Positions 10,734 through 54,689 of a stretch of 64,000 bases of DNA are shown here, piece by piece. How positions within the stretch are numbered: position 1 is the first letter of the stretch; every line of letters starts with the position of its first letter. The notes under the pieces were generated by a model that ran no database searches, was not told the origin of the DNA, and was given only the letters and a program-made list of their open reading frames with translations. Position numbers and translations under genes: made by a program. The stretch comes from Ovis canadensis. Its lineage: Eukaryota; Chordata; Mammalia; Artiodactyla; Bovidae. The DNA lies in the NCBI RefSeq assembly GCF_042477335.2, contig NC_091262.1:46659001-46723000 (forward strand). Direction: 5' to 3'.

Positions 10734-10821
10734 ATGCGCTGGGGTCCCCGGGTCCCGCTTCCAGCCCTCGACCTGGCCCTGGCTCTGACCTTCGCTGTGT
10801 TGGTGGGACCAGCATCCACAG
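10734..10821 (+). CDS. CSPG4: CSPG4 exon 1: signal peptide
   Basis: Residues 1-29 plus one base of codon 30. The start follows GCCGCCGCG and is the only ATG that gives the expected leader: MRWGPRVPLP, then a hydrophobic core LALALTFAVLV and a PAST region before the likely cleavage site. The donor is ACAG/GTGAGT. Human has Gly where this copy has Asp13, at the edge of the hydrophobic core. The exon joins in phase 1 to exon 2. Confidence 0.95.
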
Positions 10822-28800: not shown

Positions 28801-31800
28801 AACTTAAAAAGAGGAGGTATCCCAGTGTAGGGCCTACACAGTGACCCTGGGAAACCCCAAATATGACCTCCTGTCTTGGGAGGCCCATCATACTGTCAGC
28901 CCCTCCTAGTCCTTGCCTTCAGTCTGAGACCCAGGCTTGGAGAACTCAGCTGAACCCTGGCTTCCGGGCCGCGGTGGAAATAATGGGGCCGGATCTGACA
29001 GCTCACCAGGAACCATTAATAGCTAAGCAGCAGGAAGCAATACAGGGTGATGGAGGAAGCTTTGGCCCCTCTTGGGTCTGGCATCACACATGCTCTCCAT
29101 CTGGGCTCAGAGCCTTTGCTCTTCAGTGGACTCACCGCCACCAGGGCTCAGCCGTGGCCAGCCAATCCAGGAGCTACACCATATGGGCACCTCAGAGAAA
29201 GAATCTGAGCAGGCATCAGTCTGGGTAGCAGTGGTTCTCCTAGCGCTTCATCCCTGGGGGTTGTGGCCATTGGGCCACTTGATTAGGCCAGGGATGGTTT
29301 CCCTTTGAGCCAGGAAGGAGCCAGACCCAGGATGGGGATTCCTCTAGGGCCCAGGGGAAGAGAGCCGGAGCTGGCAGAAGCCTCTGGCCCCAGAAACCCC
29401 CAAGGAGGAGACCTCGATGCTTGGGATTACTGGGTCTGACCTCCTTCAGAGCCAGGGTCCGGGCTGGACATGAGGCAAGGCCATGCCTTCTGGCGCCGGG
29501 ACCAGCTGAGGCCCGTGGAGAACCAAGGCAGAGCCCCGGCCTGAAGTGCCCTCCCTACCACCCGGCCGTCCACCCTAAGGCTCCTTTCCTCCTCCAAGCA
29601 CAGAGCCACACTTCACCACAGCTCTCTCCTTCACACAGCCTCCTTCTTCGGAGAGAACCACTTGGAGGTGCCTGTAGCCACGGCTCTGACCAGCATACAC
29701 CTACAGCTGGAGTTTTCCACGGCACAGCCCGAGGCCCTGCTTCTCCTGGCCGCAGGCCCGGCTGACTACCTGCTCCTGCAGCTCTACTCCGGACGCCTGC
29801 AGGTCAGTGATGTCGCCCTGCTGGACTCCTTCTCTAGCTTCCAGTGCACACCCCCACCCGCCAGCTGTGACCTTGAGCGTGTCACTTTTACTGCCCCCCG
29901 CCGCCCCGCTCTGAGATGGACAGTCGTGTGAGCCCCCTTAGGAACCGGCTCTGCCCGTTTGCTCTCCAGCCACGCTTCTCACCACGACCCCTCGCCTGTC
30001 CTCGGTGCTCTGAGCACCCCGCCTGCTCTCCATTCTCTGCCATCCCGTGGCCTCTTGCTCTTGCCAGGCCTTTGCTCACTACTCTGCCTGATGCAAGCTT
30101 CATTCATTCCCTGCACGAAGTCTCAGCATGGGCACCCCTTCCTCACCTGGGCGGATTCCCCTCTCCTGGGTCCCAGCACCCTTGTGCATGCCTCTGGCAA
30201 AGCCCTGGCCACCCTCTATCCCCACTGTGACAGTATCACCACTGTCTGTCAGTGATGGAACAACCAAGAATGCTACTGCTATTGTTCAGACACTAAGTCA
30301 TGTCCAGCTTTTTTGTGAGCGCATGGATTGTAGCCTGCCAGGCTCCTCTGTCCATGGGGTTCTCCAGGCAAGAATACTGGAACAGGTAGCCATTTCCTTC
30401 TCCAGGGGATCTTCCTGACCCAGGGATTGAACCCATGTCTCCTGCATTAGCAGGAGGATTCTTTACCACTGAGCCACCTGGGAAGCCCCACAGCTTCCTT
30501 AATTTTATTTCATCGTTCAAGTCACCACAAGTTTTATTTGCAGAGTCTTCTGGCTGTCTCTAGAGGCTTTCCCCTAACCATGAAGAGTTTGAGGACATGA
30601 GGTCTTAGTCTATCTTTGGGGGAACCATCTGTTTCCACACTCCAGTGGGGAGAGGACTCTGGTCCCCTCTGTCCTTCTGATGCTGCCATTGCTTCTCACT
30701 GCCACAAGGTGTCACTGTTGAACATGGCCTCGTACAACCTGGCACTGATGTTCTTTCTTCCTGCCAGGTATATTGATGCCACGCTCCTAGAAAGGCGCTC
30801 CATACACGGACTCCTAAGGTCATAAGTTCGTAGGGCTCTTCTCTTTCAGTTTCCATACTCTGCCACCACCCATCCTACCATCTGGCTGTGGGGGCCCCGC
30901 ACCAGAGCCAGTTCTGTGTCAATGTCCTAGAGACAGAATCTTCTCTCCCCAAGGACCACCCCTCTTGGACAGGGCAAAACACAGCATCTGGTTGGGCGCC
31001 CCATCCCTGAACAATGAGCCTAGCTGCCTCAGTGACTCCAAGGTGTTTTGCTCTACTTGGGGGACACAGCAAGGGATTCTCAGGTGCCGATTATTCCAGG
31101 GGAGGAATCCTCTGTATTCCAAGGTGGTTTTTCTGGCACCTCTCACCTAAGGAAAGAGGGGAGACATACAAGAATTTAGGCTGAATCTCTAGGAAAGCAT
31201 CTTGCCATGTGACAGGTCTGCGTGGGCAGGGACCACATCTGATTCACATCAGGGTCCCCTGAGCCCATCCAGGCCTGGTTCAGAAATCACTTTGGGGAGG
31301 GTTTGGGGGATGAGTAAAGAGCTGGCAGGAAAGAGAGGGGAGTGGCCTGAGAAGCACTTGTCCTAGGCCCTCAGCTCGGGGGACCCCAAGTGTGGGGAGC
31401 CAGTTACGCTTTTACCGCAGAAGTGCTGCTTGCAATCGGCTTCCTTTCCCACCGTGTCTCCTCAGGTCCGACTTCTCCTGGGCCAGGAGGAGGTGAGGGT
31501 GCAGACCCCGGCAGAGACGCTGCTGAGTGACTCTGTCCCGCACATCGCGGAGCTGACCGTGTCAGACAGCTGGGCCTTGCTGTCAGTCGACGGGCTCCTG
31601 AATGCCTCAGCCCCAGTCCAGGGCGCTCCCCTGGAGGTCCCCTATGGGCTCTTCCTGGGGGGCACGGGGAGCCTTGACCTGCCCTACCTGACGAGGGCCA
31701 GCCGACCCCTGCGCGGTTGCCTCCACACGGCCACCCTCAACGGCCGCAGCCTCCTTCGGCCGCTGACGGCGGACGTGCCCGAGGGCTGTGCCGAGGAGTT

Positions 31801-34800
31801 CTCTGCTGGTGACGACGTGGCCATGGGCTTCTCTGGGCCCTACTCGCTGGCTGCCTTCCCTGCCTGGGGCACTCGGGACGAAGGCACCCTGGAGTTTACA
31901 CTCACCACACGGAGCCAGAAGGCACCCCTGGCCTTCCAGGCTGGGGGCCGGCAGGGGGACTTCATCTACGTGGACATATTTGAGGGCCACCTGCGGGCCG
32001 TGGTGGAGAAGGGCCAGGGCACTGTGCTGCTCCACAACAGCGTGCCTGTGGCCGACGGGCAGCCCCACGAGGTCAGCGTCCACGTGGATGCTCACCAGCT
32101 GGAAATCTCTGTGGACCAGTACCCCACACGGACTTCCAACCGTGGGGTCCTCAGCTACCTGGAGCCACGAGGCAATCTCCTCCTTGGGGGGCTGGATGCT
32201 GAGGCCTCTCGCCACCTCCAGGAGCACCGCCTGGGCCTGGCTGTCAACGTCTCCCTCCTGGGCTGCATGGAGGATCTCAGTGTCAACAGTCAGAGGCAGG
32301 GGCTCCGGGAAGCCTGGCTGACCCGCAACATGGCAGCCGGCTGCAGGCTGGAGGAAGATGAGTACGAGGAGGACGCCTACGGCCCATACGAAGCTTTCTC
32401 CACCCTGGCGCCCGAGGTGTGGTCGGCCATGGAGCTGCCTGAGCCCTGTGTGCCAGAACCGGGGCTGCCTCCGGTCTTTGCCAATTTCACCCAGCTGCTG
32501 ACCGTCAGCCCGCTGGTGGTGGCTGAGGGCGGTACAGCCTGGCTGGAGTGGCGGCACGTGCAGCCCACACTGGACCTGAACGAGGCTGAGCTGCGCAAGT
32601 CCCAGGTACTGTTCAGCGTGAGCCGTGGGGCCCGCCACGGCGAGCTGGAGCTCGACATTCCAGGCGCCCAAGCACGGAAGATGTTCACCCTTCTGGACGT
32701 GGTGAACCGCAAGGCCCGCTTCGTCCATGATGGCTCTGAGGACCCCTCCGACCAGCTGGTCCTTGAGGTGTCAGTGACAACTCGGGGGGCCGTGCCTTCC
32801 TGCCTTCGCAGGGGCCAAACGTACATCCTGCCCATTCAGGTGAACCCTGTCAATGACCCACCTCGCGTCATCTTCCCGCACGGCAGCCTCATGGTGATCC
32901 TGGAGCACACTCAGAAGCCCCTGGGGCCAGAGGTCTTCCAGGCCTATGACCCAGACTCCGTCTGTGAGGGCCTCACCTTCCAGCTCCTCGGTGCCCCTGC
33001 CGGCCTACCCGTGGAGCGCCGAGACCAGCCCGGGGAGCCAGCAACCGAGTTTTCCTGCCGGGAGCTGGAGGCAGGCAGCCTAGTCTACGTCCATCGCGGC
33101 GGGCCCGCCCCAGACCTGACATTCCGGGTCAGCGATGGGCTGCAAGCCAGCCCCCCAGTCACGCTGAAGGTGGTGGCCGTCAGGCCAGCCATTCAAGTCC
33201 TCCACAACACGGGGCTGCGCCTGGCCCAGGGCTCCGCTGCACCTGTCTTGCCCGCCAACCTGTCGGTGGAGACCAATGCCGTGGGGCAGGATGTGAGCGT
33301 GCTATTCCGAGTCACCGGGGCCCTGCGGTTGGGGGAGCTGCAGAAGCAGGGGGCAGGTGGGGCAGAGGGCACCGAGTGGCGATCTACACGGGCCTTCCAC
33401 CAGCGGGACGTGGAGCAGGGCCGCATAAGGTACCTGAGCACCGACCCGCAGCACCACGCCGAGGACACAGTGGAGAGCGTGGCCCTAGAGGTGCAGGTGG
33501 GCCAGGAGGCCCTGAGCAATCTGACCTTCCCAGTGACGGTCCAGAGAGCCACAGTGTGGCTGCTGCGACTGGAGCCGCTGCACACCCAGAACACCCAGCA
33601 GGAGGCCCTCACCACAGCCCACCTGGAGGCCACCCGGGAGGAGGCAGGCCCAAGCCCCACCACTTTCCACTATGAGGTGGTCCAGGCCCCCAGGAAGGGC
33701 AATCTTCAACTTCAGGGCACGCGGCTGTCAGATGGCCAGAGCTTCACCCAGGACGACCTGCGGGCTGGCCGGGTGACTTACGGGGCCACAGCTCGTGCCT
33801 CAGAGGCAGTCGAGGACGCCTTCCGTTTCCGCGTCACAGCCCCGCCGCACTTCTCCCCGCTGTACACCTTCCCCATCCACATTGGCGGTGACCCGGATGC
33901 CCCCGTCCTCACCAATGTCCTCCTCTCGGTGCCCGAGGGCGGGGAGGGCATCCTCTCTGCTGACCACCTCTTCGTCAAGAGTCTCAACAGCGCCAGCTAC
34001 CTCTACGAGGTCATGGAGCGACCCCGCCATGGCAGGTTGGTGTGGCGAGATGCACAGGACGAGGCCACCACCATGGTGACCTCCTTCACCAACGAGGACC
34101 TGCTGCACGGCCGGCTGGTCTACCAGCACGACAACTCCGAGACCATGGAAGATGACATCCCCTTTGTGGCTACCCGCCAGGGCGAGGGCAGCAGTGACAT
34201 GGCCTGGGAGGAGGTACGGGGTGTCTTCCGCGTGGCCATCCAGCCCGTGAACGATCACGCTCCCGTGCAGACCATCAGCCGCGTCTTCCACGTGGCTCGT
34301 GGCGGGCAGCGGCTGCTGACCACGGACGACGTGGCCTTCAGTGATGCCGACTCTGGCTTTGCAGATGCTCAGCTGGTGCTGACCCGCAAGGACCTCCTCT
34401 TCGGCAGTATCGTGGCTGTGGACGAGCCCTCTCGGCCCATATACCGCTTCACCCAGGAGGATCTCAGGAACCGGCGGGTCCTGTTTGTGCACTCGGGGGC
34501 CGACCGCGGCTGGATCCAGCTGCAGGTGTCCGACGGGCAGCACCAGGCCACCGCGCTGCTCGAAGTGCAGGCCTCAGAGCCCTACCTCCGCGTGGCCAAT
34601 GGCTCCGGCCTGGTGGTCCCTCAAGGAGGCCAGGGCACCATTGACATAGACGTGCTCCCCCTGGACACCAATCTAGATATCCGCAGTGGAGAGGAGGTCC
34701 ACTACCAGGTCACAGCCGGTCCACGCTGGGGGCAGCTGCTCCGGGCCGGCCAGCCGGTCACCAGCTTCACCCAGCAGGACCTGCTGGAGAAGGCCATTCT

Positions 34801-37800
34801 CTACAACCACAACGGCAGCCTCAGTCCCCGTGACACCCTGGCCTTTTCTGTGGAGGCAGGGCCTGTGCACACGGAAGCCACCCTGCAAGTGGCCATTGCC
34901 GTCGAGGGGCCAGTGGCCCCCCTGCACCTGGTCCGGCACAAGAAGATCTATGTCTTCCAGGGAGAGGCAGCTGAGATCAGAAGGGACCTGCTGGAGGTAA
35001 AGGGCTGGGGGCCTGAGCAGGGGTCTGGGCCAGGTAAATGGGCCCCCTAACCCGAGCAGTCATGCCAGGCATGCTTGCTTGGATGGTTTGGGGTGTGACC
35101 AGGTGTGTGTATGTGCCTTGGGTGTGTACCCGTGCATCTGTATGTTGTGTACCTGAGGGTTTCTGGGCAGTGTTTTGTATGCACGGCTGCCTGTGGGTTG
35201 CATATTCCTCCACATGTCACATGCACACATGTACACGCTGTGGCCGACATGCAGATTCCTGGGCTCTACCCAGACCACAGACCCTGATTTGGAGCCTGAG
35301 AATATGCACTCTAATAGGAGTGGGCTGTCTGAAGGGTTTTGATGGGTGCGGACTTTGAGGATTACAGGCCTTAGAGGCAGGTTTGGCTCCCCCCTACACC
35401 CACCCTGCCAGCCAGATCCTGCATCCTCAGTTCTTTTCCTGGACCTCAGACCAGGCCTTGAGGGCTGCTGACCACCCAGGAACCTCACTGAGCAACCACA
35501 GGCCATCCGGTAGGTCCACTGCCTTGCTGTGTGATCTCACACCAGTCACTTGCCCTCTCTGGGCTTATTCTTCTACTGAGAGTAAGCTGCTAGCTTCTGA
35601 GCCTCTTGTGGTTGTTGAAGCTGTTGAGACTTCGGGGCAGATGGTGACTAAACATGTCTGGTGGCTGGAAGTCTTTGCCCAGGAGCAGGCAGCTTTGAAG
35701 AGCTAGGCTTTGAAGAGTCTGGGGTTTAACAGCAGAGAGGAGGGGGACAGTCTTCCAGGCAGAGGGACAGAATAAGACATGTGAGCCTGGGGTGGTGTGT
35801 AGCCTGTTATGGCTGGGTCATCAGATGAGGGAGCACCTTCCCTCCAGGCCCTGGACTGGCCTCTGGTCTGCCAGCTCCATAGAGCCCCGTTGTATAGGAA
35901 TCCAGGTCGCTCAGAAGGATGGGGCGCCCTCTGGTGGCATCAGCATGTCACGGGTAGTCAGTGTGTATGTCCGTGTGTGACATACGTGTGTCTGGGTGCA
36001 CACATTGGCGTGTGGTAAGACTGTATGTCCGTGTCAGTGAACCTGAGGCCGTGTGGTTGTGTAATCTCGGCGAGAGTGTGTGTGTGTCTCAGAGGCCTCA
36101 ACAGGCTCCCCCTGTGACCCCTCTGATAACCAGGCAGCCCAGGAGGCTGTGCCACCAGCGGACATTGTGTTCTCAGTGAAGACCCCGCCGAGCGCCGGCT
36201 ACCTGGTGATGCTGTCCCCCGGCGCCGTGGCAGCTGAGCCGCCCAGCCTGGACCCCGTGCACCGTTTCTCCCAGGAGGCAGTGGATGCGGGCAGGGTCCT
36301 GTACCTGCACTCCCGCCCTGAGGTCTGGAGCGACACCTTCTCCCTGGATGTGTCCTCAGGCCTGGGTGCTCCCCTCGAGGGCGTCCGCCTGGAGCTGGAG
36401 GTGCTGCCGTCCGCCATCCCCCTGGAGGCACAGAACTTCAGTGTCCCGGAGGGCGGAGCCCGCACCCTGGCCCCGCCCCTGCTCCGCATCTCTGGGCCCT
36501 ACTTCCCCACGCTGCCGGCCCTCCACCTGCAGGTGCTGGAGCCGCCCCGGCATGGGGCCCTGCAGAGAGAGGAGGGACCTCAAGACGGGAGCCTCAGCGC
36601 CTTCTCCTGGAGAGAGGTACGGTCAGGGAAGCCCAGGGTGCTGCCCAGCTCTGGGGGCCAAGTCTGGGGGTGTGCAGGGAGAGGAGGCAGGAGCCCACAT
36701 TTACGGAGCACCTCATCTCACCCTCCTTCACCGGCATAGAGAAACGAGTGTCCCCATTTCCATCATTCTTTCACCCTGGGAGAAATGACGGTCCCCTTTG
36801 CCTCCCACAGAAACAGAGGCTCTGAAGGAGTCAGTCTCCCATAGCCAAAGGCAGGGCATGAAGGGTACTGGGCCTGAGACCCACGAGGGGACTCAGGCCT
36901 GCCGGGGCCTGACCTCCGGCCCGGGGCCTGCCCGCAGGTGGAACAGCAGCTGATCCGCTACGTGCATGATGGGAGTGAGACGCTGGCAGACAGGTTTGTC
37001 CTGGTGGCCAACGCCTCAGAGATGGACCGCCAGAGCCACCCCGTGGTCCTCACCATCACCATCCTGCCTGTCAACGACCAGCCCCCCATCCTCACCACAA
37101 ACACAGGCCTGCAGGTGAGAGCGTCTAGGACCGCCTCCCGCTGTCCCTGTCCCCACCAGAGAGGCCCAGCACCGAGCTCCCCTGCTGTGAGCCTCACTTT
37201 CCTCCTCTGTAAAATGGGGATCCTGCCCCATGCCGCCCTAGGTTATTGGGAGGAGAGAAGAGCTACGGCACCGGAAATAGAACACAGGTGTGAGGCTCTG
37301 TAATTGGCCACTTACAAGTGCAGCAGGCAGCCTTGTGAATGGACATGCTTCCCATTGCTCCCTGGACTCACCCTCAGCAGGAAGCTTTTGCTCTGGCTCA
37401 GCACCAGGACTCCTGAAGAAAACTGTTTCAGACCCTTAGGGGTGGACTCCAACTGCTCCCCACTTCCACCCCCAGCAAGTGCAGGCCACAGCCGGACCCC
37501 CCAATCCCCTGACTCTTACACTACTGCAGGGTAGTGGGGTCCCCATCTAGCAGAGGTGAAGGCTGAGGCCCAGACAGGTGACAGGACTTCTCCAGGGTCA
37601 CAGTGGAAGTCACCGATGGAAAAGAGTGTGGCTTGACCAGGGCCACACAGCAGGATAGTGAACGGGCAGGGCGCTGAATGCTGACCTCTAGGGTATAGCC
37701 TCTGGCTCAGCAGCAGCTATGGAAGGTTTCAGAAGAGGGCCGATGTGGGCTGTCTGTGGCATGAGAATCTTTGGTGTATAGGATGTGCCTGTGGGGAACA

Positions 37801-40800
37801 GCCGGGTGCCGGGAAGGCCTGCAGAGGGTAGGTTTCAGGCAGAGGGCTGCCAGACCAGAGTCAGATGGTGCTGTGTGCCATTTCGCCACCAGGTGGTGCT
37901 GTCCACTGTGTTTGTACCAGGAGCCCTGTGCTAAGGCCAGGTCTATACATTATGGCCCTCCTTCCAGACCTCAGGCCGAGGTCAGCCTTGGGCTGGGAGA
38001 GGGAATCCCAGAGTGCTTGGTTTTCTAGGAAGCCCCTCTCCAACACTGCTCATAAGTTGCTGACCCAATAGGACCCTCGGAATGGGATCCTGTCGTGCTG
38101 ACAGGAGAGAGGCTTGTGGGGTCTCCCCTCCCCTCTGAGCATGGGGAGGGGCTACCTGCACCCAGGAAGCCTTTACCCATCTGGCTGGGGCCTCGTGATT
38201 GCACTGGGAGCACCTGGGCCCCCATCAGGTGCTGCAAGGCAGCGGCCTGGCACCAGCCTCTCCAGCTCACCAAGCCTCCCTTCCCCATCCCTCACCCGGA
38301 AGGGGAGCCTAATCCTAAGTATCCTGATCTGATTCCCATCCTGTGCCCCTGCCCAGATTCACCATGGAGGGTCTAAAGGGAGACCCCTGCCCTGCCAGTG
38401 AACCACAGAGGCGGTACTGTGGGTCAGAGTTGGGAGACTCTGAGGGGTGAAAGCTGGGGGCTTCCTGGGGTAGGGGTACATGAGCTGGCCTTGAGGGACA
38501 AGCTGGACTAGGGCAGAGGGAGCCCTAGGGAGCCCTAGGGAGCCTGGGCGTGGGAACCTTGGGCCCACAGGGGAAAGTGAATGGGGTGGAGGGCCCCTTT
38601 GTGTGGGGAAGCCCCGGATGGCAGTGCGGTTGGAGCCCTGATGATACCCCCAGGCCAGGGGGGAATGCAGTGGGTAGGCTTGGTGGGATCATATCCCTCA
38701 CAGGCCTGTATCCCCAGATGTGGGAGGGGGCCACGGTGCCCATCCCAGCGGAGGCCCTTAGGGGCACAGACAGCGACTCTGGACCCGAGGACCTGGTCTA
38801 CACCCTGGAGCGGCCCAGCAACGGCCGGGTGGTGCTGAGTACGGCGCCGGGCATCGAAACCCACAGCTTCACCCAGGCCCAGCTCGACGGCGGGCTCGTG
38901 CTGTTCTCACACAGAGGTAGGCGCCGAGGGGTGGGGGTGCCCCGAGGCTGGGTGCCAGTGCGGGCCGGCGAGGCTCAAGTCCCCTCCTGTCCCAGGAGCC
39001 CTGGACGGAGGCTTCCGCTTCAGCCTGTCTGACGGCGAGCACAGCTCCGCGGGACACTTCTTCCGGGTGATGGCCCAGAAGCAGCTGCTCCTCTCCCTGG
39101 AGGGCAGCCGGACGCTGACCGTCTGCCCAGGTGGGTGAGCCACGCCAGGGCCCTTCTGCCTCCCCTGTGGCCGCAGGTCTGGCCCTGGCTCCTGGTCAGA
39201 GTCCGACAGTCCCCCTTGGCCTCTCGCAGGGTCCGTCCAGCCGCTCAGCAGCCAGAGCCTGAGAGCCAGTTCCAGTGCGGGCACTGACCCCCACCACCTG
39301 CTCTACCAGGTGTTGCGGGGCCCTCAGCTTGGCCGGCTCTTCCACACCCAGCAGGGCAGCACCGGGGAGGCCCTGGAGAACTTCACTCAGGCAGAGGTAA
39401 GGGCCGCTCTCTTCAGCCACTCAAGCCTTAGACTCCATCCAGTCTAAGGCCCACTGTCCCCTTGGACACACTTGTGGACACGGGTACCAGCTCCAGCTTC
39501 CCTGGGCCTGCCATGGTCCAGGCCCTGCATGCCCCACCTTCCAGAAGCTGCCAGGCTGGGGGATAGGGGAGGGATGGGGCTTAGTGTTCCAGGAAAAGGA
39601 AGAAGGATGCAGGAGACCAGGGCTCCAGGGGCCCAGAGCAGGGATCAGGTTCTCAGACTTGGCTTCCAGGAGGAACTGCACTTGGACCCTAGGGGATAAG
39701 GGGACACTAGACACCCCAGTGGCTGGTGGGGGACAGTGTTTGGTTTGGGGGGGGATAGAGTTTGGGATGAAGGCAGCTGGTTGGCTTGTGGGCAGAGATG
39801 TAAGCCCGGGGCTCAGGTGAAGAGCCAGAAAGAAGCAGGGTGGGTCCTGAAGCAGACGAGTGAACACAAGCAGCTGAGTAAGTCGAGCTGGGGGTGAAGC
39901 TGCCATCCATGCTTCAGGGCAGCTTCAGGACACAACTGCCCCCGAGCAGAGGCCCCCAGTGAAAGCTAGGACTCTCAGCCACGGGAAGAGGCAGACCACC
40001 AGGCTGCTTCTGTTGGGGTCCCAGAGCGCTCTGTGCTACCTGGGCCAATGGGGCCAGCAGCCATCGTTTTAATTTAGGTCCCTGTAAGTGCATTAGGCGC
40101 CCAGCATTCCAGGGCAGCCTTGGCTCGCCCTGAAGGCTCTCCCTGTGGTGGCAGGGGGTGGTGGGGGGAATGTCTTCCATGTGAGGGCAGGAAGGAACTT
40201 TAATGAGGGTGGGAAGAGGTTCTCAGTTCTCTCACATCACCGTCCCCCAGGCTGGAGTTCTCTGTGCTCCCAGCATCTGCTGTGGCCCCGCTTCCCAGCC
40301 CTCCCCACAATTAAATATTCAGCAGGCCAGCTGTGCACCCTGAATCCCTGGGATGCCGAGGGAGGAGGGTGGAGCAGGAGGAGGACTTCAGGCCCCTCCC
40401 CAACCCTGCGGACTAGATTGAATGGCCACCAGGGGGCCAGGCTGGCAGCGCCACCCAGGGAAGCTGGAGGAGGCCTTGAGGCAGACACACCCTCCCCTTG
40501 GTGAAGGGGGCAGGGCAGAACTGGGTGGGATCTGACAGTGCCATGGTGGCACAGGACTCTGAGCTGGGGGCGGTGGAGAGGAGACAGGGACCAGGTGTCT
40601 CCATTCTGCAGATAAGGAAACTGAGGCTTATAGAGGTCAAGGGACTTTATTCAGATCCTGTGGCTAGTGAGAAGCCATCCCGGGGCTGTGCCTTCAGATT
40701 GCTAGTCCTAGATTCTTTCCACAAAGGACGCTGCTGGTTCCCAGAGGTCAGGGCCCCCTCCCCACCTCGCCTGTGACTTGCCTCATCCCCAGCTGGACAG

Positions 40801-43800
40801 CCCCCCGACCCACAAGCACCTCGTGTACCCAGACTCCAGCTCCTGAGGGTCTCTGTTTCCTTCCTGCTCATTGGTCAGCCCCGGGCCAGAGGTCACAGCT
40901 GGCAGTCCTTGTGGACCACAGCTGGCCCACAGATGTGTTTTATTTGGCTTGCGCATGCATTTAATGGTTTTAAATTAGTGGTCAAGATATAACCTTTGGG
41001 GTATTTCACCCACATGCAACCTGATTTCCAGTTTCTTAAAAAGCTTCTGTTCCCCTCTCCCGGCCAGCCTCTGAAGAGCACCTCCAGCTCTGCTCCCCCT
41101 CCTGACCGGGCAGGGTGCCCCACTTCACCACAACCCCGGTGCAACAGTGAGATGGAAGCCTAGATCCTCCCACACTGTGACCCCAGTCGGCTTCCTTCTC
41201 ATTATTGCACAAGTCCTGTTTTTCCACGAGAAGGAAAATAGTTCCCTGTGTCTTCTAAAAGGGGAAAACAAAAGATAAGCCAAGAGGACACATTGGGATT
41301 AGAAGAGGAGGGAGTGGATTTCTTGATGGAAGTGGAGACTATTCCTTGGTGTTTAACAGGCAGCTGGCCCTAGAGAATAGCAGGCGTGGCTGGAGTGGAG
41401 AGGGAGGAGGTGAGGTCGCAGGTAACAGGTCACACAGGGTCTTTGAAGCCAAAGGGTGGTGAGCCATTGCACTGTCTGAGCAAAACTGACAGAACCCAAC
41501 TTACATTTTTAAAGGCTCACCCTGACTTCTGTGTTAGAACCCACCTGCAAATGCAGGAGACCTAAGAGATGCAGGTTCGATCCCTGGGTCAGAAAGATCC
41601 CCCGGAGGAGGGCCTGGCAACCCACTCCAGTATCCTTGCCTGGAGAGTCCCCGTGGACAGAGGAGCCTGGCAGGCTAGGGTCATAAGGTTGCAAAGAGTT
41701 GGACACGATTGAAGTGACTTAGCACGCATGTGTGGGGGCCAGAGAGAGAGCCAGTACACAGTTAGGGGGCTCCAGCAATGATCCAGGCCAGAGATGACAC
41801 TGTAAGAGAGGCAACGAGGAATCAGGGGTGACTCAGGGTCTGGGGACCTGAGCCACAGGACGAACAGAGACATGCCCTCCGCAGTGGAAAGGCTGGGAGA
41901 GGCGGAGCAGGTCAGAGGTCGTCTCGGATACGCTGAGTTTGAGATGTCCTTCAGACATCCCAGTGGAGCTGCCAAGGAAGCAGGTAGCTATGAGCCTGGA
42001 GTTCAGGAGAGTGAAGCCTGGGGTTGGAGAGACAAATAAAGGGGTCGTCTCATGGCTGGTGTCTAAGGACGTGAGACCCAGTGAGAGCGCATGGGTAGTG
42101 CCTGTAGGCAGAGTGTCAAGGCCAAACCACAGACATGGGGTGGGTGGGCGGGGGAGGGGTGGGCCCAGTAGAAGAGTCTGTGAAGAAGCAGCTAGTGAGG
42201 CTGGAGGTCAACTGAGGGAGCAGAACCGCTCAGAAGCCATCGGGTGGGCCGGAGGAAGGAGCGCTCACTTGTGTCCAGTGCTGCTGAGAACTGGCCTCTG
42301 GATTCAGTGACATGGAGGCCATGGTCCCCTTGGCAACAGCAGGAACCAAAGTCTGGGGAGAGTGTGCTCAAGACTACATTGGGGAAGAGTATAGACTATT
42401 CCTTCTGGCTTTTTGCTGCAAAGAGCCTAAAAGGAGGAAGAACATATGTTGGTGTAAAAAGTAAAGTCAGGAGAAGTTTATTCTTTAAGATGGGTGGATA
42501 GCATAGTTACCTAATGATGGGACTGATCCGTTTGGGGGGACACTGACGCCGTGGGGAAAAGATGGGCATTGGTAGAAGCGGTGGCTTCAGTAGGGAAGAG
42601 GGACAGGGATTTCATGCAAAAGACGACCAAGCTGCTGTGGAGAGAAGCACAAATAGAGTACTGTCTTCCCAGGGGCTCCGAGAGATGAGGTGGCAGAGCT
42701 GGGATTTGACAGAGGCGTCCGGATCCAGAGCCTAGCTCTTCACTGTCGTGTGACTGTTTTATGGCGACCCCCTGAGCTGATGAAGGAGACATAGAGCGAG
42801 GCACATTGGGGAGAGCCGCGAGGGTGGCTGGGCTCTGGGCATCTGCCAGGGAGACCCCAGTACCCGGTACCGGTGCCAGCCTCAGAGGGGGTCCCAGGCC
42901 CTGCAGGATCTCATCCAACCAGTGGGGTGTCCCTGCAGGTATATGCTGGGAACGTTCTATATGAGCACGAGATGCCCTCCGAGCCCTTCTGGGAGGCCCA
43001 TGATGCCCTGGAGCTCCAGCTGTCCTCACCCCCTGCCCTCGACATGGTCGCCACCCTTGCCGTGACGGTGACTTTCGAGGCTGCCTGTCCCCAGCGCCCC
43101 AGCCGCCTCTGGAGGAACAAAGGTGAACAGCATGATGGGCTGGCAAATTTGGGGGTGGGGGGCACACGGCCAAAGGTCAGCAGCTCACGTCAGCCCTGAG
43201 GACCTGGTACATTACAGGGAGGATGGGCAGGTGGGGTCAGCAGGGGGCGTATCCGGGCTGGGGTGCCTGGTCTGAGCGGGGAGGGACAATCTGGCCTTGA
43301 AGACTCTGGTCTGAAGGTCCTCAGCTCTCCCTTCGGTGGACAGGACCTTCACAGCCTGTGTCCCATCCCCAGGTCTCTGGGTCCCCGAAGGCCAGAGGGC
43401 CGAGATCACCACTGCAGCCCTTGACGCCGCCAACCTCCTGGCTAGCGTCCCATCGCCCCAGCGCCTGGAGCATGACGTGCTTTTCCAGATCACGCAGTTC
43501 CCCACGCGGGGCCAGCTGTTGGTGTCCGAGGAGCCCCTCCACGCCGGGCGGCCCCACTTCTTGCAGTCTGAGCTGGCCGCAGGGCAGCTGGTGTACGCCC
43601 ACGGCGGCGGGGGCACCCAGCAGGATGGCTTCCGCTTCCGTGCCCACCTCCAGGGGCCGGCGGGGGCCTCCGTGGCGGGACCCCAGACCTCAGAGGCCTT
43701 CGCCATCACGGTGCGCGATGTGAATGAACGGCCGCCGCAGCCTCAGGCCTCCGTCCCGCTCCGGCTCACCCAGGGCTCCCGTAGCCCTGTCTCCCGGGCC

Positions 43801-45207
43801 CAGCTGAGCATGGTGGACCCAGACTCCGCTCCCGGGGAGATTGAGTATGAGGTGCAGCGGGCCCCCCACAATGGCTTCCTGAGCCTGGCAGGGGCCAGCC
43901 CGGGGCCGGTGACCCGCTTCACGCAGGCTGACGTGGATGCAGGACGCCTGGCATTCGTGGCCAACGGGAGCAGCGTGGTGGGTGTGTTCCAGCTAAGCGT
44001 GTCTGACGGGGCCAGCCCGCCCCTGCTCGTGTCCCTGGCGGTGGATGTCCTTCCCTCAGCCATTGAGGTGCAGCTGCGGGCACCGCTGGAGGTGCCCCAA
44101 GCTTTAGGGCGCTCCTCCCTGAGCCGGCAGCAGCTCCGAGTGGTTTCCGATCGGGAAGAGCCAGACGCAGCCTACCGCCTCACCCAGGGGCCCCGTTATG
44201 GGCATCTGCTGGTGGGCGGGCAGCCTGCCACAGCCTTCAGCCAGCTCCAGGTAGACCAGGGGGACGTGGTCTTTGCCTTCACCAACTTCTCCTCCTCTCA
44301 CGATCAGTTCAGCATCCTGGCACTGGCCAGGGGTGCCAACGCATCCGCCACGGTGAACGTCACCGTGAGGGCTCTGCTGCACGTGTGGACAGGTGGGCCA
44401 TGGCCCCAGGGTGCCACCCTGCGCCTGGACCCCACTGTCTTAGATGCGGGAGAGCTGGCCAACCGCACGGGCAGCGTACCGCGTTTCCGGCTCTTGGCAG
44501 GACCCCGGCACGGCCGCGTGGTACGAGTGCCCCGGGCCAGGACAGAGCCGCGGGGCGGCCAGCTTGTGGAGCAGTTCACCCAGCAGGACCTTGAGGATGG
44601 CCGGCTGGGGCTGGAGGTGGGCAGGCCAGAGGGTAGCTCTCCCGGCCCCATGGGCGACAGTCTCACTCTGGAGCTATGGGCAAGAGGTGTCCCTCCCGCT
44701 GTGGCCTCGCTGGACTTTGCCACGGAGCCTTTCAATGCAGCCCGGACCTACAGAGTGGCTCTGCTCAGTCTGCCTGAGGCTGCTCGGACCGAAGCCGGGG
44801 AGCCAGAGAGCGGCAACCCCACAGGCGGGCCAAGCCCAGCAACCTCCAGCCCTGTGCCCCCAGTGGCCAGCAGGGGCTTCCTGGGCTTCCTGGAGGCCAA
44901 CATGTTCAGCGTCATCATCCCCATCTGCCTGGTCCTCCTGCTCCTGGTGCTGATCGTGCCCCTGCTCTGCTACCTCCGCAAACGCAACAAGACAGGCAAG
45001 CACCACGTCCAGGTGCTGACCGCCAAGCCCCGAAATGGCCTGGCCAGTGACGCCGAGACCTTCCGCAAGGTGGAGCCAGGCCAGGCCATCCCACTGACAG
45101 CGGTGCCTGGCCAGGGGCCCCCACCAGGGGGCCAGCCTGACCCCGAGCTGCTGCAGTTCTGCCGGACAGCCAACCCTGCCCTCAAGAATGGCCAGTACTG
45201 GGTGTGA
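10734..45207 (+). CDS. CSPG4: CSPG4 (NG2) chondroitin sulfate proteoglycan 4, ten coding exons
   Basis: Spliced coding region: join 10734-10821, 29639-29802, 31466-34996, 36134-36616, 36938-37114, 38718-38916, 38996-39130, 39230-39396, 42939-43122, 43373-45207. It totals 6963 nt, giving 2320 residues plus TGA. All introns are GT-AG and phases agree at every junction. The product is a single-pass membrane proteoglycan: signal peptide about 1-29, two laminin G-like domains about 30-193 and 203-380, an acidic linker, 15 CSPG (cadherin-like) repeats to about 2185, a transmembrane segment about 2222-2244, and a 76-residue tail ending QYWV, a PDZ ligand (MUPP1, GRIP1 and syntenin in known species). 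It binds collagens, growth factors and integrins at the surface of pericytes and glial precursors. Near full-length identity to human CSPG4 (2322 residues) makes the call secure. Oddities in the glycosylation and ERK sites are described under findings. Confidence 0.98.
12355..12600 (+). mobile_element. Ancient interspersed repeat remnant, family not assigned
   Basis: Reads like a degraded mammalian-wide repeat with TGAGCTAAACCTTGGAGGAT, AAGGAGGCCAGTAGCCTGGA and GCAGTAGGGAGCCAGTGCAG. Related remnants occur near 20430-21130, 35700-35810, 41280-42240 and 53440-54330. No coding potential; the boundaries are approximate. Confidence 0.45.
13519..13552. repeat. GT microsatellite, interrupted
   Basis: A run of GT units broken by CTGTGTATGTCT, in CSPG4 intron 1. 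It is likely to vary in length between individuals. Confidence 0.9.
13841..13866 (+). promoter_or_regulatory. G-quadruplex motif with GC boxes in CSPG4 intron 1
   Basis: Four G tracts of 5, 3, 5 and 5 bases separated by single bases: AGGAGGGGGCGGGTGGGGGC followed by GGGGG. The short loops make this a strong G-quadruplex candidate, and the same bases contain overlapping SP1-type GGGCGG/GGGGCGGGG boxes. It sits in a locally GC-rich stretch (13700-14000). A regulatory role is inference. Confidence 0.5.
14219..14343 (+). mobile_element. CHR-type SINE, short, with target-site duplication
   Basis: Carries ATCTCCCTGGTGGTCCAGTG, GGTTTGATCCCTGGTTGGGG and AACTAAGATCCCACATGC, then a short A-rich tail. 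Direct repeats AAGACTCCTTCTCCAGG at 14202-14218 and AAGACTCCTTCTTCAGG at 14344-14360 match at 16 of 17 bases and define the insertion. Confidence 0.92.
15691..15967 (-). mobile_element. Bov-A2-type SINE dimer, inverted
   Basis: Two tandem Bov-A units on the minus strand. The first on the plus strand reads GTCGTGTCCAACTCTGTGCG, GACCCCATAGACGGCAGCCC and GCAAGAACACTGGAGTGGG. The second repeats the order from AGTCGCTCAGTCGTGTCTGA to GTACTGGAGTGGGGTGCC. Short direct repeats TGTAAAAA at 15680-15687 and 15966-15973 are compatible with a target-site duplication. Confidence 0.88.
16492..16541. repeat. GT/CA inverted repeat in intron 1
   Basis: A GT-rich arm (GTGTGCACGTGTGTGTGTGC) is followed after a few bases by a CA-rich arm (TGCACACACGTGCACACACA). 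The two pair with each other apart from a small bulge and both contain CACGTG. Alternating purine-pyrimidine sequence plus inverted symmetry favours Z-DNA or cruciform structures. Confidence 0.85.
16793..16802 (+). promoter_or_regulatory. MEF2-like AT-rich element
   Basis: CTATAAATAT matches the MEF2 consensus YTAWWWWTAR at 9 of 10 positions. It lies in non-repetitive intron 1 sequence. It could equally be a cryptic TATA box; binding is not shown. Confidence 0.25.
16927..16957. repeat. AC microsatellite
   Basis: A run of about 14 AC units with one interrupting T (ACACTCAC), in CSPG4 intron 1. Confidence 0.92.
17150..17320 (+). mobile_element. MIR element
   Basis: MIR landmarks in order: CTGAGCCTCAGTTTTCTCCT, CTCTAAAATAGGATAAATAA, TTCCTACCTCCTGTGTG and AAATACTCAGTAGGTGCCTG. 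The degradation is typical of this old family. Confidence 0.7.
18863..18906. promoter_or_regulatory. Pair of AP-1 motifs in CSPG4 intron 1
   Basis: TGACTCA at 18863-18869 and TGAGTCA at 18900-18906 are both exact AP-1 (TGASTCA) sites with 37 bases between their starts. The first is embedded in GTTGACTCATTGCTCAG, which also resembles a MAF/NRF2-type element. The surrounding 18780-18970 has no recognisable repeat. Function as an enhancer is inference. Confidence 0.4.
19942..19951 (+). promoter_or_regulatory. Exact MEF2 consensus (or TATA-like) element
   Basis: CTATAAATAG fits the MEF2 consensus YTAWWWWTAR at all 10 positions and is followed by GGG. It lies in intron 1, in sequence without a recognised repeat. 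It may instead be a TATA box for an intronic start site; sequence alone cannot decide. Confidence 0.35.
22600..22720 (+). mobile_element. MIR element
   Basis: Contains GGGGCTTGAATCCCAGCCTG, GAGCCTCAGTTTCCTCACCT and GTAAAATGGGAGCAACCTCA in MIR order. Confidence 0.72.
23597..23807 (-). mobile_element. Bov-tA SINE, inverted
   Basis: On the plus strand it starts GAAAGTGAAAGTGAAAGTTG and continues with GACTGCAGCCCACCAGGCTC, CTCTGTCCATGGGATTCTCG, CCCTTCTCCAGGGGATCTTC and CATGAGCCACGAGGGAAGCC, the full reverse complement of a Bov-tA element. Located in CSPG4 intron 1. Confidence 0.9.
25345..25497. promoter_or_regulatory. Candidate muscle-type cluster: CArG-like box with three M-CAT motifs
   Basis: CCTTATAAAG at 25396-25405 differs from the SRF CArG consensus CC(A/T)6GG at one base. 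It is surrounded by three TEAD M-CAT cores: CATTCC at 25345-25350 and GGAATG at 25427-25432 and 25492-25497. All lie within about 150 bp of GC-rich, non-repetitive intron 1 sequence. CSPG4 is expressed in smooth muscle and pericytes, where SRF and TEAD factors act, so the grouping is plausible as an enhancer. CCTTATAAAG could also serve as a TATA box. Confidence 0.35.
25531..25553 (+). promoter_or_regulatory. G-quadruplex motif in intron 1
   Basis: G tracts of four, three, four and four bases (GGGGTGGGTGGGGTGGGG) with single-T loops. Location is CSPG4 intron 1, adjacent to the CArG/M-CAT cluster. Confidence 0.45.
26557..26641. repeat. Imperfect CA-rich repeat
   Basis: Degenerate CA-rich stretch (ACACGCGCACACATGCACAA and similar) in CSPG4 intron 1. 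Confidence 0.8.
29639..29802 (+). CDS. CSPG4: CSPG4 exon 2: start of laminin G-like domain 1
   Basis: Residues 30-84. The acceptor TTCACACAG/CCTCC gives ASFFGENHLEVPVATAL, the conserved N-terminus of mature CSPG4. The exon ends QLYSGRLQ at a CAG/GTCAGT donor. It encodes the first strands of laminin G-like domain 1, which with domain 2 forms the globular N-terminal head. Confidence 0.97.
29803..31465 (+). other. CSPG4: CSPG4 intron 2
   Basis: 1663 bp, GT-AG. It carries an L2-like stretch near 29950-30200 and an inverted Bov-tA SINE at 30271-30488. Nothing else is recognised in the remaining sequence. Confidence 0.95.
30271..30488 (-). mobile_element. Bov-tA SINE, inverted
   Basis: On the plus strand: TGCTACTGCTATTGTTCAGA, GTAGCCTGCCAGGCTCCTCT, CAAGAATACTGGAACAGGTA, GGATCTTCCTGACCCAGGG, and the terminal ACTGAGCCACCTGGGAAGCC. 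Complete and well preserved, in CSPG4 intron 2. Confidence 0.93.
31466..34996 (+). CDS. CSPG4: CSPG4 exon 3: laminin G domains and first CSPG repeats
   Basis: Residues 85-1261 in one 3531-nt exon, phase 0 at both ends (CTCAG/GTC to GAG/GTAAAG). It encodes the rest of laminin G-like domain 1, all of domain 2, an acidic linker near residues 370-385 (EEDEYEEDAY), and roughly the first eight CSPG repeats, each with motifs such as FTQEDL and VxFVHxG. In human and rat the principal chondroitin sulfate site lies in this exon (human Ser995). Here the segment reads QGEGSSDMAW with Ser993-Ser994 and no Ser-Gly. A conserved DADSGF occurs at residues 1044-1049. Several N-x-S/T sequons are visible. Antisense open frames over this exon are compositional shadows. 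Confidence 0.98.
34997..36133 (+). other. CSPG4: CSPG4 intron 3, GT-rich
   Basis: 1137 bp, GT-AG. It has GT-rich stretches at about 35098-35240 and 35958-36100, the latter only 30-170 bases upstream of exon 4. The acceptor is CTCTGATAACCAG/GCAGCC, with purines close to the AG and only a modest pyrimidine tract. A remnant of an old repeat lies near 35700-35810. Confidence 0.93.
36134..36616 (+). CDS. CSPG4: CSPG4 exon 4: CSPG repeats
   Basis: Residues 1262-1422, starting AAQEAVPPADIVFSV and ending LSAFSWRE at a GAG/GTACGG donor; phase 0 at both ends. It covers a CSPG repeat and the start of the next, with the typical FSQEAVDAGRVLYLH repeat motif. The weak acceptor and GT-rich intron upstream make it the exon most likely to depend on auxiliary splicing signals. 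Confidence 0.96.
36617..36937 (+). other. CSPG4: CSPG4 intron 4
   Basis: 321 bp, GTACGG to CCCGCAG. Nothing recognisable inside apart from GC-rich unique sequence. Confidence 0.93.
36938..37114 (+). CDS. CSPG4: CSPG4 exon 5: CSPG repeat
   Basis: Residues 1423-1481, starting VEQQLIRYVHDGSET and ending PILTTNTGLQ; 59 codons, phase 0. It completes the repeat begun in exon 4 (VHDGSE motif) and contains the inter-repeat motif ILPVNDQPP that closes most CSPG repeats. Confidence 0.96.
37115..38717 (+). other. CSPG4: CSPG4 intron 5
   Basis: 1603 bp, GT-AG. It contains MIR-like fragments near 37180-37230 and 37530-37690. A small decamer repeat lies at 38517-38543. No coding exon is supported. Confidence 0.92.
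38517..38543. repeat. Short decamer tandem repeat
   Basis: AGCCCTAGGG is repeated head to tail about 2.7 times in CSPG4 intron 5. Confidence 0.8.
38718..38916 (+). CDS. CSPG4: CSPG4 exon 6: CSPG repeat
   Basis: Residues 1482 to part of 1548, starting MWEGATVPIPAEAL and ending LVLFSHR, phase 0 in and phase 1 out (AGAG/GTAGGC). It includes an acidic TDSDSGPEDL segment with a Ser-Gly dipeptide. Confidence 0.96.
38917..38995 (+). other. CSPG4: CSPG4 intron 6 (79 bp)
   Basis: A near-minimal GC-rich intron, GTAGGC to GTCCCAG. It is in the size range removed by intron definition. Confidence 0.95.
38996..39130 (+). CDS. CSPG4: CSPG4 exon 7: CSPG repeat
   Basis: Parts of residues 1548-1593, starting GALDGGFRFSLSDGEH and ending RTLTVCP, phase 1 at both ends (CCAG/GTGGGT). 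It forms the C-terminal strands of the repeat begun in exon 6. Confidence 0.96.
39131..39229 (+). other. CSPG4: CSPG4 intron 7 (99 bp)
   Basis: Short GC-rich intron, GTGGGT to CTCGCAG, with nothing else recognised. Confidence 0.95.
39230..39396 (+). CDS. CSPG4: CSPG4 exon 8: CSPG repeat
   Basis: Residues 1593-1648, starting GSVQPLSSQSLRASSSAG and ending LENFTQAE at GAG/GTAAGG; phase 1 in, phase 0 out. It carries an NFT sequon and the FTQAE repeat motif that continues in exon 9 as VYAGNVLYEHE. Confidence 0.96.
41280..42240 (+). mobile_element. Ancient interspersed repeat remnant, split by a SINE
   Basis: Landmarks GGTCACACAGGGTCTTTGAA and AGGCTCACCCTGACTTCTGT precede the SINE. Afterwards come CAATGATCCAGGCCAGAGAT, GAGATGTCCTTCAGACATCC and GAGCCTGGAGTTCAGGAGAG. 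The order resembles a common mammalian repeat also seen at 53440-54330; the family name is not assigned. Confidence 0.5.
41530..41729 (+). mobile_element. Bov-tA SINE, 5' truncated
   Basis: Reads AACCCACCTGCAAATGCAGG, GGTTCGATCCCTGGGTCAG, AACCCACTCCAGTATCCTTG, GGACAGAGGAGCCTGGCAGG, and a 3' end TGCAAAGAGTTGGACACGAT. Located in CSPG4 intron 8. Confidence 0.92.
42939..43122 (+). CDS. CSPG4: CSPG4 exon 9: CSPG repeat
   Basis: Residues 1649 to part of 1710, starting VYAGNVLYEHEMPSE and ending RPSRLWRNK, phase 0 in and phase 1 out (AAAG/GTGAAC). It closes the repeat begun in exon 8. Confidence 0.96.
43123..43372 (+). other. CSPG4: CSPG4 intron 9
   Basis: 250 bp, GTGAAC to ATCCCCAG. No recognised element. 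Confidence 0.94.
43373..45207 (+). CDS. CSPG4: CSPG4 exon 10: last CSPG repeats, transmembrane segment, cytoplasmic tail
   Basis: Parts of residue 1710 through 2320 and the TGA stop. It encodes the final CSPG repeats (FTQADVDAGRLAFVANGSS and FTQQDLEDGRLGLEVG motifs), a Pro/Ser/Thr-rich juxtamembrane stretch near 2180-2210, a hydrophobic segment about 2222-2244 (MFSVIIPICLVLLLLVLIVP region), and a basic stop-transfer RKRNK. The tail holds Thr2250 (PKC-alpha site in rat, kept), Thr2308 (ERK site in rat, here followed by Ala instead of Pro) and the C-terminal PDZ ligand QYWV. The juxtamembrane EPESGN at 2186-2191 has a Ser-Gly not present in the human sequence as I recall it. Confidence 0.98.

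Positions 45208-52745: not shown

Positions 52746-52780
<35 letters not shown>
52746..52780 (+). repeat. Homopolymer of 35 G
   Basis: Thirty-five consecutive G residues preceded by AAAGC and followed by CAGGGG. Mononucleotide G tracts this long are rare in mammalian DNA and prone to slippage, quadruplex formation and sequencing error, so the exact length is uncertain. Confidence 0.9.
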
Positions 52781-54330: not shown

Positions 54331-54378
54331 CACGGGTGGATGTGAAGCGAGAAAAAGAGAGGAGCTAAGCATGATTCC

Positions 54379-54689
54379 CTGATAGCTCAGTTGGTAAAGA
54401 ATCTGCCTACAATGCAGGAGACCCTGATTCAATGCCTGGGTCAGGAAGATCCTCTGGAGACGGGAGAGGCCACCCACTCCAGTATTCTTGGGCTTCCCCT
54501 GTGGCTTAGTTGGTAAAGAATCTGCCTGAAATGTGGGAGACCTGGGTTCGATCCCTGGGTTGGGAAGATCCCCTGGAAAAGGGAAAGGCTACCCACTCCA
54601 CTATTCTGGCCTGGAGAATTCCACGGACTGCATAGTCCATGGGGTCGCAAAGAATCGGACACCCCTGAGCGACTTTCACGTTCACTTTC
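54379..54689 (+). mobile_element. Bov-A2-type SINE dimer with target-site duplication
   Basis: The first unit reads CTGATAGCTCAGTTGGTAAA to CCACCCACTCCAGTATTCTT. The second starts GGGCTTCCCCTGTGGCTTAG and continues to GGGGTCGCAAAGAATCGGAC and a GTTCACTTTC tail. The repeats AAGCATGATTCC at 54367-54378 and AAGCGTGATTCC at 54690-54701 match at 11 of 12 bases. Confidence 0.93.

Follow-up and report, generated by a model that had tools for sequence, protein, structure and literature searches.

Does the sheep proteoglycan CSPG4, also called NG2, still carry a chondroitin sulfate (CS) chain at the place where the human protein carries its principal one? The question is raised by a stretch of 64,000 nucleotides of the Ovis canadensis genome (contig NC_091262.1; the whole stretch is the window below), in which the CSPG4 gene has no canonical Ser-Gly in its CS-bearing segment, while the serine aligned to the human attachment site Ser995 is still there. 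The corresponding serine of NG2 is Ser999 in the rat numbering. A preliminary description of this DNA had recognized a ruminant CSPG4 and its CS-bearing segment, and had concluded that the site should be a poor substrate; the identification is upheld, whereas the conclusion has to be weighed in more detail below. In the principal CS loop of this sheep-type CSPG4, a serine takes the place of the glycine that follows the acceptor, and the answer that we prefer, tentatively and with a confidence that falls somewhat short of even, is that the chain is reduced or absent there.

At 34181-34201, within the open reading frame of the large CSPG4 exon, the codons GGC GAG GGC AGC AGT GAC ATG give G-E-G-S-S-D-M. 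A spliced translation over ten exons bears out these letters as well as the numbering Ser993-Ser994, both of which had been given in the preliminary description, and the human E-S-S-G-D and Ser995 that were named there agree with the printed human peptide 991-QGESSGDMAWEEVR-1004 (PMC9526814). Sequence, spliced translation and human alignment place the residues concerned as follows:

34187..34189, forward strand, Gly992 (GGC), at the position of human Ser994
34190..34192, forward strand, Ser993 (AGC), aligned to human Ser995
34193..34195, forward strand, Ser994 (AGT), at the position of human Gly996, which leaves no Ser-Gly motif

In the CS peptide, the window has QGEGSSDM where human has QGESSGDM, i.e. 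the acceptor-aligned serine is kept (human Ser995, window Ser993) and the change affects the next residue, with Gly996 being replaced by Ser994. The surroundings are highly conserved: 43 of the 45 residues of human 981-1025 are identical in the window, and the two differences both lie in the attachment core. The peptides that span the site are VATRQGEGSSDMAWEE in sheep and VATRQGESSGDMAWEE in human, and the tryptic peptide of sheep NG2 is QGEGSSDMAWEEVR. The acidic context is also retained, with four Asp or Glu in a 21-residue segment around the site, both in the window and in human, but the dipeptide canonically used by xylosyltransferases, Ser-Gly or rarely Ser-Ala, is missing, as Ser993 is followed by Ser994 and Ser994 by Asp995.

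The gene that contains this site is an intact, spliced CSPG4 orthologue and not a pseudogene copy. Ten exons join into one frame of 2320 codons with a single terminal stop, and all nine introns have GT donors and AG acceptors. Exon 1 was placed by the spliced gene model, exons 2 and 4 to 9 by this model together with the human CSPG4 reference, and exons 3 and 10 by the model and Pfam (Laminin_G and Cadherin_3 in case of exon 3):

10734..10821, forward strand, CSPG4 exon 1 (signal peptide)
29639..29802, forward strand, CSPG4 exon 2
31466..34996, forward strand, CSPG4 exon 3 (contains the site)
36134..36616, forward strand, CSPG4 exon 4
36938..37114, forward strand, CSPG4 exon 5
38718..38916, forward strand, CSPG4 exon 6
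38996..39130, forward strand, CSPG4 exon 7
39230..39396, forward strand, CSPG4 exon 8
42939..43122, forward strand, CSPG4 exon 9
43373..45207, forward strand, CSPG4 exon 10 (stalk, transmembrane segment, tail, stop codon)

The protein has the N-terminal laminin G region, 15 CSPG repeats (by our own cut and alignment), a transmembrane segment and the QYWV tail of a CSPG4 orthologue. In exon 3, Pfam gave Laminin_G_2 (97.6 bits, two stretches) and Cadherin_3 (302.3 bits), and in exon 10 again Cadherin_3 (145.3 bits); the alignment to PDB 7ml7 (CSPG4) covered 669 residues with E = 0. The human reference of 2322 residues is a working sequence that is confirmed at two anchors only: it includes a 672-residue PDB stretch without mismatch and has QGESSGDMAWEEVR at position 991, as printed in PMC9526814. 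Compared with it, 2027 of 2319 aligned residues are identical, and 292 (12.6 percent) differ. In the laminin G region of exon 3 (31466-34996), three human residues, around the TPE of LGLTPEATN, are missing from the window in the alignment to PDB 7ml7.

Could the substitution be a private polymorphism of this individual, or an assembly error? There is a single assembly, and the change is easily made, as one G-to-A transition turns the glycine codon GGT into a serine codon; with AGC GGT as hypothetical ancestral codons, this would even be a CpG transition, a frequent type of mutation. However, the assembly is a long-contig one (42 contigs, 2.97 Gb), the remaining reading frame is intact, and when the genome was searched with a 135-residue query, only one of the five matches that were scored was identical at 100 percent, the other four having 22-39 percent. 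We therefore regard such an individual or technical origin as quite unlikely.

The structural setting of the site is predicted to be a loop. The site belongs to the following repeat, which was delimited by the repeat alignment and an AlphaFold2 model:

33902..34264, forward strand, CSPG repeat 5 (residues 897-1017)

Within this repeat, the site is predicted to lie in a loop of residues 989-999 between two long strands, and the alignment indicates that this connection of the last two strands is longer than its counterparts in most of the 15 repeats. The input alignment for AlphaFold2 consisted of ten repeats; the five that span exon junctions were left out. The resulting model of repeat 5 has a mean pLDDT (predicted local distance difference test) of 87.5 and shows strands at model positions 83-92 and 104-114, with the site at 97-98. 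The block 91-100, which contains the site, has a mean pLDDT of 71, whereas five of the 13 blocks reach 94 or 95, and only the single-residue block 121 is lower (59). In the model, the site is thus part of a loop or flexible segment, and unstructured segments are what xylosyltransferases have been described to require (PMC10570366).

What would a serine at the position after the acceptor mean for the transfer of xylose? The structures of the xylosyltransferase XT1, as discussed in PMC5992326, show a constriction just past the acceptor that demands Gly or Ala, and larger side chains are argued there to block transfer. As XT1 is narrow at this point, Ser993 would be poorly xylosylated, and Ser994, which is followed by Asp, would hardly be xylosylated at all. 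A larger share of sheep NG2 would then reach the cell surface as bare core protein, which would retain its further functions, given the strong conservation of the repeat around the site. That NG2 can exist in such a form is established, as it occurs with and without the CS chain, and engineered Ser999 mutants have been used to study this chain (PMC6755981); according to earlier work cited there, mutation of Ser999 abolishes the CS and changes the localization of the protein.

Several observations weigh against this reading. It is based on one assembly only, and the literature search turned up no sheep NG2 biochemistry. A 240-peptide array with XT1 gave G, A, S, T and C at the +1 position (PMC5992326), and there are CS sites that deviate from the canonical motif: secretogranin-1 from human urine is described to bear CS, consistently unsulfated, at a motif that has neither -SG- nor -SA- (PMC10424144), and in chromogranin A the CS is reported on a Ser-Ala (PMC8724862), which weakens the need for glycine. 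It is therefore quite possible, even if it is not our first expectation, that the site still works, with Ser993 or Ser994 being xylosylated, the small serine at +1 being tolerated, the acidic loop being kept, and the substitution being nearly neutral. The conservation of the acceptor serine and of its flanks agrees with this. In case of the array, however, the signal for serine is confounded, as the authors themselves caution that a serine at +1 might itself be the acceptor (PMC5992326). With the XT1 structures on the one side and the array and the atypical CS sites on the other, the expected effect is a reduction, and a complete loss or no effect at all are both possible.

The assignment of the human chain itself bears on this point. 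PMC9526814 names Ser-995 as the attachment site, and the support described in its text is a c4 ion that retains the whole linker and a z10 ion that lacks it. In QGESSGDMAWEEVR, residue 4 is Ser994, and z10 starts at Ser995 and extends to Arg1004. Taken as they are described, the two ions fit better with a chain on Ser994, which is itself followed by a serine, than with one on Ser-995, and we take this as a doubt and not as a reassignment. The precursor at 885.3063 matches the peptide with a hexasaccharide and one sulfate (computed 885.3056). The fragment at 747.31 comes closest to singly sulfated c4, for which 746.72 is computed, or 747.22 if a hydrogen is added; this fit is inexact, and c5 is far away (790.23 with sulfate, 750.25 without). 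The doubt relates to the ions as they are described in the text and not to the spectrum, and z ions can lose their glycan. If the ions do indicate Ser994, human CSPG4 uses a serine that precedes another serine, and the claim that the Ser-Ser of the window cannot work is weakened; for this reason we gave the reduced-chain reading a lower confidence and the continued use of the site a higher one. In the opposite sense, a Ser-Ser dyad may be a working CS site in this loop, in sheep and, judged by the c4 and z10 ions, also in human. Of the initial description, it thus stands that the canonical Ser-Gly is gone from the CS-bearing segment, and the XT1 structures agree with a poor substrate, while the array, secretogranin-1 and the human CSPG4 ions make the latter less certain than it had been stated. 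A reduced CS at the sheep site is only slightly likelier than a normal one.

If the chain is reduced in repeat 5, could it be carried elsewhere? Between the signal peptide and the membrane, the human reference has 11 Ser-Gly pairs, three of which (599, 995 and 1901) are absent in the window, and the loss of one Ser-Gly is therefore not rare in itself. The human signal peptide has a twelfth Ser-Gly at residue 3, which was not part of the count of 11 and is absent in the window as well. Two Ser-Gly pairs of the window are new in comparison with the human reference, as judged by the alignment:

34604..34609, forward strand, Ser1131-Gly1132 (ANGSGLVV), new Ser-Gly
44809..44814, forward strand, Ser2189-Gly2190 in the juxtamembrane stalk (EAGEPESGNPTGG; EAGEPESGNPTGGPSPATSS), candidate replacement site

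The human reference, outside its two anchors, reads ANGSSLVV at the first of these positions and KPESSTPTG at the second. Ser1131-Gly1132 has no acidic residue at -5 to -1 or +2 to +6, and it overlaps an N-G-S sequon. The surroundings of Ser2189-Gly2190, shortly before the membrane, are of low complexity and rich in P, G, S, T and E, with three glutamates close by, and acidic residues are found upstream. It is the best candidate for a CS chain elsewhere on sheep NG2, but a preprint argues that Ser-Gly has to be accompanied by a cluster of acidic residues (PMC13405426), and there are just three of these near Ser2189. This Ser-Gly may be older or younger than the change at 994, and a transfer of the chain to another site appears distinctly improbable to us. 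The broader proposal that sheep NG2 no longer bears CS on the hairpin of repeat 5, distal to the membrane, and has it either moved about ten repeats to the stalk Ser2189-Gly or dropped altogether, leaving a core-only protein, is rather doubtful.

A further explanation would be that the Ser-Gly was never lost in the sheep lineage, but arose or became fixed only in the branch of primates and rodents, in which case the sheep state would be ancestral. The human peptide and the NG2 Ser999 site are presumably both from Euarchontoglires, and no outgroup CSPG4 was found in viral_contigs or genome_contigs: when mammalian relatives were sought with the 135-residue segment, there were 18 pattern matches in the former and 100 in the latter, and none of them was confirmed. 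Two considerations make this history unlikely in our view. The loop and its acidic flank are conserved in sheep, as if the site had once been used, and sites in use regularly have glycine at +1 (PMC5992326).

It could also be imagined that the enzyme has adapted to the altered acceptor. Of the active-site residues that the XT1 paper names (PMC5992326), those checked are W392, D494, W495, E529, R557, the hairpin 563-572, position 574, R598 and K599, and in all of them the XYLT1 exons of this genome agree with a working sequence of human XT1. This numbering was obtained by counting, with W392, D494, W495 and E529 lying in stretches that are also in PDB 6ej7, and the others being counted along the working sequence. 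Elsewhere, the examined XYLT1 exons differ from this human XT1, for example by the conservative exchanges M to V and I to V near the hairpin exon. XYLT2 was compared in two stretches and is the same as XT1 at W392, D494, W495 and E529. In the XYLT1 exons examined and the two XYLT2 stretches, there was no sign of an adaptation to serine at +1, and a compensation by an altered XT1 is unsupported, as the checked active-site residues are unchanged in this genome.

If sheep naturally lack the Ser-Gly, these large animals would represent a natural experiment on NG2 function that could be exploited with pericytes, oligodendrocyte precursors and injury models, and they would show cleanly in vivo whether a serine at +1 is compatible with xylosyltransferase action. 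Independently of sheep, the analysis raises a doubt over which serine of the human peptide bears the chain. In our literature search, no report on the CS site of ruminant, bovine or ovine NG2 was found among the papers listed, as judged by title or the start of the abstract, and the search for cross-species comparisons of CSPG4 attachment sites listed nothing on this site, as judged by title. An Ogdh peptide that was found by the letters of the motif is a chance match (PMC5031629).

Apart from the CSPG4 gene, the window is rich in matches to the Bov-tA and BOV-A2 consensus sequences, the best of which has 94 percent over 194 bases, and this marks the DNA as ruminant. The beta-lactoglobulin exons of the genome, on contig C3, point to sheep: 36 residues of one exon are the same as in PDB 4ck4 (ovine), whereas 4omw (goat) and 7lwc have one difference and the two remaining chains among the five displayed of 32 hits have two. 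In another exon, one internal residue departs from the sheep query, with Tyr for His or the reverse of a known sheep variant at this place. The contigs of XYLT2 (C11), XYLT1 (C24) and beta-lactoglobulin would also suit sheep if they are numbered as chromosomes, apart from a 145 Mb contig with the number 28; the window lies on C18. From these data the genus is Ovis. At 54377-54607, a 119-base unit is repeated head to tail in about two copies (82 percent matches), which overlap Bov-tA matches, and at 52746-52780 there is a run of 35 G that Tandem Repeats Finder gave as a period-1 array.

How does the sheep site compare with known systems? Within the same genome, a CSPG4-like paralogue (L002, an open frame of 1201 amino acids on contig C16) aligns over the same repeat with 39 percent identity and reads DQEGAFRDLD at the position of the site, likewise without Ser-Gly; a fragment that resembles a copy of this paralogue (L003) is found on the 145 Mb contig C28. 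With secretogranin-1 (DPADASEAHES) and chromogranin A (KEEEGSANR), the window shares a putative acceptor that is not followed by glycine, and for both of these proteins CS has been reported (PMC10424144, PMC8724862). They differ in that secretogranin-1 has neither -SG- nor -SA- and chromogranin A has alanine, whereas the window has a serine in a hairpin loop. With human CSPG4 and rat NG2 (Ser995 and Ser999, respectively), the window shares the gene, the loop within CSPG repeat 5, the aligned serine and the flanks RQGE and DMAWEEVR, but where human CSPG4 has E-S-S-G-D, the window has E-G-S-S-D, and thus no Ser-Gly.
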